Shown here: positions 45,052 through 46,068 of the stretch, one piece after another
Position numbering within the stretch: position 1 is the first letter of the stretch
How the letters are laid out: the number at the start of each line of letters is the position of its first letter
Virus record (IMG/VR): IMGVR_UViG_3300047320_000210
Coordinates: 19,922-83,921 of that record
Length of the DNA: 64,000 nt
From: a virus
Reading direction: 5' to 3' (one strand)
Translations under genes and position numbers: made by a program
Notes under the pieces: generated by a model
The model's input: only the letters and a program-made list of their open reading frames with translations
Told to the model about the DNA's origin: nothing
Databases searched by the model: none

Positions 45052-46068
45052 TTACTGGTCCATGAATACTTCTATGAAGGCTTGCGCGGCTTTCGCGTTG
45101 ACGGCATTGCCATAGGCGCGCAGGCGTCCCACTCGGGCGGGTATCCCATGAGCCAACGGGAATGTTCCGGCCTCAACTGGCCGCCACCTTCCATCTCGGC
45201 AGCCGAGCCAGTCAGCGTCTCGCCAGAAGCTGTTAACCGGGCCGGGGTGCACAGGTAGGCCTGCCGCGGCAGCTGGTCGTTGCGTTCCTTGCCGTCCCGC
45301 GTGGCGACCATGCCCGGGGTGTCCTTGTGGTCCCGGGTGGTCGGCGTGGTCCAGCCACATAGGTGATAGGCCACCACGTCCACCGTCTTGCGCGAGCTGT
45401 CGTTGTTCCCCGCCGCGTTGTTCCCGTTCTGTGCCGGGGTTCCCGCCATCGGGGTCGGCCAGCCCGCCAAGGTGACCGCTGCGGCCAAGTCCGGCCCGTG
45501 GTTGCGCATCGCTTCGCGCATCCCACCCTCGGTTGAGCGCACGCCCTTGTCCGCCAGACTGGCGGTTGGCGTAGGCCACCCAGTAAAGCCGGTCACGGAT
45601 GTGCGGCGCGCCGACCCCCGCAGACGGGAACGGGACGGCCCCGAAGGCGTAATCCAGGGCTTCCAGGTTAGCGTGTACAAGGTCGACCCAAGGGTCGACA
45701 GGCTTGCTTGCAACCTGCTCTCCAAAGATGACTGCAGGCTTTGACTGCTCGATGAGCCAGGCAAAACTTGGCCAGAGGTGTCTTGGGTCCTCAAACCCCG
45801 CTCCAGCGCCTGCCGCGGAGAAAGGCTGACACGGACAAGATCCAGACCATACAGCCCGGTCATCAGGCCATCCAGCGGCGCGGAGGGCATAAGACCAGCC
45901 CCCAAGGCCGGCGAAGAAATGGCACTGGGTGAACCCGAACAGGTCACGGGGCTCGACATCTTCGATACTCCTTTCGTCCACGACACCGGGGGCGATCAGG
46001 CCCGCCGTGATCAGGTTGCGCAGCCACTGCGCGGCGTAGGGATCGATCTCGTTGTAATACGCGGCCAT
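45052..46068 (-). CDS. DNA C5-cytosine methyltransferase
   Basis: A 338-residue C5 methyltransferase: motif I FAGLGGWS (52-59), motif IV PCQPFS (catalytic Cys80), motif VI EQV (117-119, instead of ENV), motif VIII RDRLYWV and motif X GNAVNAKAAQAF. It should methylate phage DNA and protect it from host restriction. The stretch between motifs VIII and X is Gly/Gln/Arg-rich and poorly structured, and overlaps a second long reading frame. It may be a solitary methylase; no restriction nuclease is nearby. Confidence 0.9.
   Translation of the reverse strand: MAAYYNEIDPYAAQWLRNLITAGLIAPGVVDERSIEDVEPRDLFGFTQCHFFAGLGGWSYALRAAGWPDDRAVWSGSCPCQPFSAAGAGAGFEDPRHLWPSFAWLIEQSKPAVIFGEQVASKPVDPWVDLVHANLEALDYAFGAVPFPSAGVGAPHIRDRLYWVAYANRQSGGQGRALNRGWDARSDAQPRAGLGRSGHLGGLADPDGGNPGTEREQRGGEQRQLAQDGGRGGLSPMWLDHADHPGPQGHPGHGRHAGRQGTQRPAAAAGLPVHPGPVNSFWRDADWLGCRDGRWRPVEAGTFPLAHGIPARVGRLRAYGNAVNAKAAQAFIEVFMDQ
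45072..45986 (-). CDS. Overlapping frame inside the methyltransferase gene
   Basis: A 304-codon open frame on the same strand, shifted relative to the methyltransferase. It carries repeated GWPTP-type motifs (three copies), 'SARRTSVTGFTGWPTP', 'PARLTASGE' and 'HSRWLMGYPPEWD'. From memory, this alternative-frame product is a recurrent annotated protein next to or within Dcm-like genes in Pseudomonas and Xanthomonas phages and prophages. Whether it is translated is unproven; an ATG at 45986 and an in-frame ATG at 45959 are possible starts. Real dual coding or a side effect of constraint on the other frame are both possible. Confidence 0.45.
   Translation of the reverse strand: MSWTKGVSKMSSPVTCSGSPSAISSPALGAGLMPSAPLDGLMTGLYGLDLVRVSLSPRQALERGLRTQDTSGQVLPGSSSSQSLQSSLESRLQASLSTLGSTLYTLTWKPWITPSGPSRSRLRGSARRTSVTGFTGWPTPTASLADKGVRSTEGGMREAMRNHGPDLAAAVTLAGWPTPMAGTPAQNGNNAAGNNDSSRKTVDVVAYHLCGWTTPTTRDHKDTPGMVATRDGKERNDQLPRQAYLCTPARLTASGETLTGSAAEMEGGGQLRPEHSRWLMGYPPEWDACAPMAMPSTRKPRKPS

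Follow-up and report, generated by a model that had tools for sequence, protein, structure and literature searches.

Does a reading frame of 304 codons, nested inside the gene of a phage DNA methyltransferase, encode a protein of its own, and if so, what would that protein do? The gene lies on the minus strand of the window, the 64,000-nucleotide stretch of DNA that we analyzed, itself taken from the 83.9-kb record of a tailed phage. Tape measure, head maturation protease, DNA polymerase, helicase, primase and SbcC-like genes are present in that record, and several large ORFs of the window have no PHROG family match. The C5-cytosine methyltransferase frame, here called alpha, occupies 45052-46068 (338 aa; PF00145, E=1.4e-12; phrog_363, E=1.5e-87). 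The second frame, beta, is an ORF on the same strand in +1 phase with respect to alpha, at 45072-45986, with 304 aa when read from a GTG at 45986, and matches phrog_31772 (E=1.9e-38) and phrog_1008 (E=1.4e-34). The initial annotation of this DNA had noticed both frames and had listed GWPTP repeats, PARLTASGE and HSRWLMGYPPEWD in the second; the two frames are indeed there, as are all of these peptides, the repeats occurring as GWPTP or GWTTP.

Our answer, which we hold with a probability of about 0.85, is that the locus is a same-strand dual-coding gene, from which the two subunits of a single split C5-cytosine DNA methyltransferase of the M.EcoHK31I type are made. Alpha would be the large catalytic domain, with AdoMet binding, the Cys80 nucleophile and motifs VIII and X, and beta, beginning within alpha at its own ribosome-binding site, would contribute the small domain, made up of the target-recognition region and motif IX. 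One mRNA would give two subunits that assemble on DNA, and we infer a heterodimer whose subunits are both needed: alpha and beta would have to associate to recognize and methylate their target sequence, and the probable use would be anti-restriction, the phage DNA being protected from the restriction systems of the host. The middle of alpha would be a largely unselected linker that need only stay open.

Division of the methyltransferase motifs between the frames

The large domain of a monomeric C5 methyltransferase is built from motifs I-VIII and X, and its small, DNA-reading domain from the variable region and motif IX (see also PMC3404938); the division between alpha and beta follows the same boundary. 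As a member of PF00145, alpha has motifs I, IV, VI and VIII in one conserved large domain and motif X (GNA) at its C-terminus, and lacks motif IX. Motif I (FAGLGG, AdoMet binding, 45898-45915) is recognized in the sequence and in alignments A2, A5 and A7. Motif IV (PCQ, with the catalytic Cys80, 45826-45834) and motif VI (GEQV, whose E117 is the counterpart of the ENV glutamate, 45712-45723) are invariant in A5 and A7, motif VIII (GAPHIRDR, 45589-45612) is nearly invariant there and finds canonical methyltransferases by hhalign with E=2.7e-14, and motif X (YGNAV, 45100-45114) is invariant or nearly so. The AF2 model of alpha is confident over residues 1-80, most of 100-170 and a C-terminal helix (approximately 317-338), while residues 178-271 fall below a pLDDT of 50 and are predicted to be disordered. 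Foldseek with this model returned M.HhaI (E~1e-6), M.HaeIII and DNMT structures; as modeled, alpha is a C5 methyltransferase large domain with a disordered middle.

That middle (approximately residues 171-276, 45241-45558; pLDDT 25-46 over 171-270) looks like an unconstrained reading of the beta domain, its dN/dS being 1.26 in the frame of alpha versus 0.41 in that of beta, and, being without constraint, it probably does not serve as the recognition domain. Alpha had been described in the initial annotation as motif-poor where beta lies, which holds for this part but not for the C-terminus of alpha, conserved in both frames. A canonical motif IX was found in frame in 0 of 250 alpha proteins, and since motif IX lies in beta, alpha by itself falls short of a complete canonical C5 methyltransferase.

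In beta, the N-terminal part (45579-45959, dN/dS 0.41), with the conserved GSTLYKLTWK...SRSRLRASVRRTS, lies over alpha motifs I-VIII, and its first 130 residues or so resemble nothing of known function. The middle of beta (45246-45578), with GWPTP-type repeats and indels and with constraint in the beta frame only, is the proposed target-recognition region; relatives have zero to four W-x-T-P repeats (median 2). Motif IX, LRPEHSRWLMGYPPEW, is at 45129-45176, and the protein ends with LRPEHSRWLMGYPPEWD and a short tail. Searches with beta of Pfam, NCBIfam and the sequences of the PDB gave no match, the AF2 model of beta alone is of low confidence (pLDDT 59.6), and no significant fold match was found by Foldseek with this model.

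A DNA pattern for FVEWMMG[LF]P led to phage methyltransferases that have motifs I-VIII, ...LNPRFVEWMMGLPDGWVT... and ...LKMLGNGVVPQQA... in a single frame; canonical enzymes read LTPRECARLMGFPDTF at the place of motif IX. The profile-profile link from beta to an in-frame motif IX has two steps and passes through a second nested beta family: the family of the window's beta (A6) aligns with the second one (A9) with E=4e-26 over 211 columns, and the second one with the in-frame motif IX of the single-frame enzymes (A8) with E=5.6e-8 over some 20 residues. When aligned directly with canonical methyltransferases by hhalign, the window's beta family is matched exactly at motif IX, with a probability of 0.1 that is not significant. 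The order VIII-IX-X along the DNA is the same as in single-frame enzymes. Motifs VIII and IX are a median of 147 codons apart across frames, versus 161-171 residues in single-frame enzymes, and IX and X are 12 apart versus 20-21, motif X standing 12 codons past the GxP of beta motif IX in nearly all relatives. Judged by these comparisons, beta carries the motif IX that is missing from alpha, at the place where single-frame enzymes have it.

It is unlikely, in our view, that beta is a real protein acting outside the enzyme, such as a regulator, a DNA mimic or an anti-restriction protein that merely overlaps the gene. The unfamiliar N-terminus and the lack of a structure match would suit a protein of this kind, but not the presence in beta of a motif IX that is absent from alpha, with matching place and spacing, nor the fact that alpha and beta occurred together throughout the loci examined, nor an alpha whose unconstrained middle makes a poor candidate for a recognition domain. 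The initial annotation had proposed either a regulator or a target-recognition partner; we keep the partner, since the motif IX segment absent from alpha is found in beta, and drop the regulator.

The start of beta within alpha

The window reads GACGAAAGGAGTATCGAAGATG near the beginning of beta, with AAAGGAG (45968-45974) inside the first four codons of the alpha stretch D-E-R-S-I-E-D, 8 nt ahead of a beta-frame ATG at 45959. An ATG is found at the same site in 160 of the 193 deduplicated loci, and this inner ATG, giving a beta of 45072-45959, is most likely the start, rather than the also possible GTG at 45986. The Shine-Dalgarno core is present in 122 of the 193 loci versus 29.4 expected from the codon use of each gene, and the Arg codon at this site is AGG in 74/172 cases versus 54/1576 elsewhere. 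The ribosome-binding site of beta within alpha is under selection, and as it lies upstream of the coding part of beta, this signal is independent of the beta protein.

The two frames share one mRNA and their motif order is collinear, which would also be expected if programmed ribosomal frameshifting from alpha produced a fusion of motifs I-VIII with the C-terminal part of beta, and no separate subunit. We consider this very unlikely: a conserved ATG with a selected Shine-Dalgarno sequence stands ahead of beta, beta is constrained over motifs I-VIII, where it would be untranslated in a fusion made after motif VIII, and the fusion would lose motif X.

Retention of both frames and the selection on each

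Shuffling the synonymous codons of alpha, with its protein sequence and codon usage unchanged, gave a +1 run at least as long as beta in 1 of 2000 trials. Beta matched 213 phage records by tblastn, most of them below 60% identity, and in the first eight loci examined, from phages of Burkholderia, Salmonella, Pseudomonas, Xanthomonas, Rhodobacter, E. coli and cyanobacteria, alpha and beta are open and the third frame is full of stops. Beta served to fetch loci from contigs of viral and bacterial genomes, and alpha, in a second set, from viral contigs; some contigs are in both sets, and 193-194 loci were left after deduplication. Using HMMs of both proteins, we found alpha and beta on the same strand, in the +1 relation and overlapping by more than 500 nt in 250/250 related loci, all of them nearest relatives, to which the statement of frame retention refers. 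Eighty of these were picked by alpha alone, and beta is kept in all 80. The +2 frame averages 12.7 stops in the 250 loci, whereas in none of these is the +1 frame interrupted inside beta; second-frame stops in homologues, which the initial annotation had named as evidence against dual coding, were thus not found inside the beta reading frame of relatives. The stops of the +1 frame sit before the beta start or near the end of alpha, save in a few atypical loci (L169, L137 and L107). The open alpha frame of L169 extends far upstream of the gene, and L137 (3780-4289) and L107 (845-1483) have an HNH-type endonuclease ORF inserted in the C-terminal part, just past beta motif IX, with the alpha frame open through the insert.

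We had expected free-standing beta genes. Those that seemed to stand alone turned out, where we read them, to overlap an alpha whose PCQ the pattern had missed, or to be ends of single-frame enzymes. A search of 297 genomes with phrog_27243 gave two weak matches. Two loci, L065 (at 2674) and L159 (at 3494), have a single in-frame stop in the unconstrained middle of alpha and an intact beta, and are possibly decayed copies or errors. In Pseudomonas phage PACT201 (L284, 1800-3100) and in PMG1 (L003) the alpha frame is broken by small indels and the C-terminal part of beta is retained; the extreme N-terminus of alpha is out of frame in PMG1.

We compared rates along the gene in 89 independent sequence pairs from the 193 deduplicated loci, with kinship among the clades of the pairs lying outside the model. 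Differences at alpha codon positions 1/2/3 were 0.102/0.086/0.344 in the single-coded N-terminus, 0.117/0.074/0.212 where beta overlaps motifs I-VIII, 0.337/0.208/0.183 in the middle, 0.128/0.069/0.109 in the C-terminus and 0.126/0.115/0.281 in the last 22 codons. The 95% intervals of the ratio of position 3 to position 1 are 2.92-4.09 in the single-coded N-terminus versus 0.48-0.61 in the middle, without overlap, and the inversion is seen singly in 79/87 pairs; between the window and its nearest relative, the middle has 32/6/1 changes at the three positions. For dN/dS, we took the 50 pairs with more than 80% identity and classified every change by what it does in each of the two frames, using simple counting with a fixed transition weight. 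Besides the values given above for the middle, we obtained 0.41 for beta and 0.17 for alpha over motifs I-VIII, and 0.35 and 0.40, respectively, in the C-terminus. The regions that flank beta serve as an internal negative control: before its start, beta dN/dS is 1.34 (alpha 0.16), and in the last 22 codons, past its conserved end, 0.94 (alpha 0.23). Constraint switches frame along the gene, and both frames are under purifying selection. A constraint in the methyltransferase frame only, the other contrary outcome named at the outset, is not seen, the middle being constrained in the second frame only, and the proposal of real dual coding is borne out by frame conservation and by this rate profile.

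Long spurious ORFs are common in high-GC genes, and one antisense frame is also free of stops in 11 of the 250 loci, as could be expected if only alpha were a gene and the +1 frame had stayed open by chance, through GC-rich DNA and a conserved alpha. However, chance would not invert the codon-position rates in the middle, confine a beta dN/dS of approximately 0.4 to the interval between the beta start and its conserved end, or select a Shine-Dalgarno sequence outside the beta coding part, and relatives of ~54-58% GC still keep the +1 frame, which makes this explanation extremely improbable. The converse, that beta is the sole functional gene and alpha a decaying methyltransferase, as the broken alpha of a few relatives and the records that annotate beta only might suggest, has practically no chance of being right given an alpha dN/dS of 0.16-0.40 outside the middle and invariant catalytic motifs.

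Other nested genes, origin and comparison with known split enzymes

The same two-frame arrangement is present in hundreds of phages, for which annotation usually gives one protein, pipelines usually retaining one frame of such genes. Products similar to beta are annotated elsewhere, as the initial annotation had stated: they include K1ind1 ORF28, PMG1_00057, and proteins of PhiXhv-5 and Tunturi_1 (ORF50). K1ind1 ORF28, a 'Mte8-like protein' and beta homologue (phrog_1008, phrog_31772), is annotated as a CDS of its own that overlaps a C-specific methylase; the E. coli records, among those listed, are annotated only as DNA cytosine methyltransferase. In Tunturiibacter phage Tunturi_1 (L282, 1679-2650), beta is annotated as 'DNA methyltransferase' and the catalytic frame is left unannotated. 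In the literature searched, we found neither a function for Mte8-like proteins and other beta homologues nor a link to the overlap, these proteins being known from annotation alone, and no paper describing phage nesting of this kind. Few documented cases exist, among DNA phages, of a coding frame lying wholly within another on the same strand over ~300 codons and with each of the two under purifying selection.

Nesting occurs in at least two further classes of phage methyltransferases. A pattern drawn solely from the alpha frame of another class, VAHGxPxRVDR, retrieved 66 methyltransferase loci; this search pattern constrains part of the +1 codons but neither the upstream GGxLNPTWVE nor the ORF length. 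All 55 that were left after deduplication have a +1 ORF of at least 157 codons (median 246) bearing a W-x-MG-x-P motif IX, and a motif IX in frame was found in 0/55. The longest +1 run of canonical methyltransferases (n=17) has a median of 97 codons. The rate test in this class (24 pairs) points in the same direction, more weakly. Low-GC loci such as L376 have the same nesting, with a beta of 164 aa. A further class, at L563 (1476-2325) and probably L566, has a long +1 ORF with a differing motif IX-like segment, RWLSGSERLKMMGFASDW. In L546 (1446-2658), otherwise an ordinary methyltransferase, motif X is read in frame 0 but a canonical-looking motif IX, VRRLTPAECERLQGFPDGW, in +1, which may be a recent independent frame displacement or a sequencing error. 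We do not claim a strict rule by which every enzyme without an in-frame motif IX has a nested beta: among 80 loci chosen by canonical similarity, our regular expressions classified most, not all.

The idea that beta was born by overprinting, put forward in the initial annotation, fits its N-terminal ~130 residues, which look overprinted on the ancient alpha motifs I-VIII, but not its C-terminal half, whose match to the motif IX that other C5 methyltransferases carry in frame makes it look like a displaced ancestral domain and no new invention. Because the motif order is collinear, we infer an origin by frame displacement: the small-domain segment of a single-frame gene would have shifted to +1, with alpha then reading through the segment as a neutral linker and beta gaining an overprinted N-terminus and its own start. 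We would give even odds to the broader proposition that two-frame C5 methyltransferases are a major general phage architecture, in which the recognition domain and motif IX of an ancestral single-frame gene slipped to +1 by compensating frameshifts, leading to an obligate two-subunit enzyme, with the same DNA coding twice. If so, many 'complete' phage methyltransferases would be half-enzymes, with the specificity subunit absent from annotation. Split methyltransferases, of which these genes would offer natural examples, are wanted for targeted methylation, for which M.EcoHK31I has already been used (PMC3439449). If our reading of the locus as a split enzyme is true, attempts to clone these enzymes or to predict their specificity with alpha as the sole basis would fail, and phage methyltransferases in large numbers would be open to re-annotation and testing together.

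The small subunit of M.EcoHK31I is encoded within the gene of the large one in another frame, and has approximately 176 aa, unlike the beta of the window, of approximately 295 aa. The window's gene also differs in being a phage gene, and no restriction enzyme was recognized in the directly neighboring ORFs; the locus is in a tailed-phage genome, and the four neighboring ORFs have no Pfam family above the cut-off. As PMC3404938 describes M.EcoHK31I (YGGCCR), it is a C5 methyltransferase of two polypeptides, the larger with motifs I-VIII and X and the smaller with motif IX, and the proposed distribution of motifs in the window is like the one given there; according to the title of Lee et al. 1995, cited in the same paper, both polypeptides are needed in vitro. 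The target-recognition domain of M.EcoHK31I is placed in the larger subunit by the account in PMC3404938, itself a prediction, whereas in the window the segment between motifs VIII and X shows constraint in the small-subunit frame alone and the middle of alpha is predicted to be disordered. M.AquI (CYCGRG), another two-subunit C5 methyltransferase, has motif X together with IX in the small subunit and a split variable region, as described in PMC3404938. Like M.AquI, the window's gene has catalytic motifs I-VIII and motif IX on different polypeptides; unlike it, motif X stays in alpha. With the single-frame EWMMG class (loci L374-L450), whose motif IX matches the nested beta proteins, and with PF00145 enzymes such as M.HhaI and Dcm, the window's gene shares the order motif VIII, recognition region, motif IX, motif X and the large-domain fold, but in all of these a single frame and a single polypeptide hold every motif, and in the window they are divided between two.
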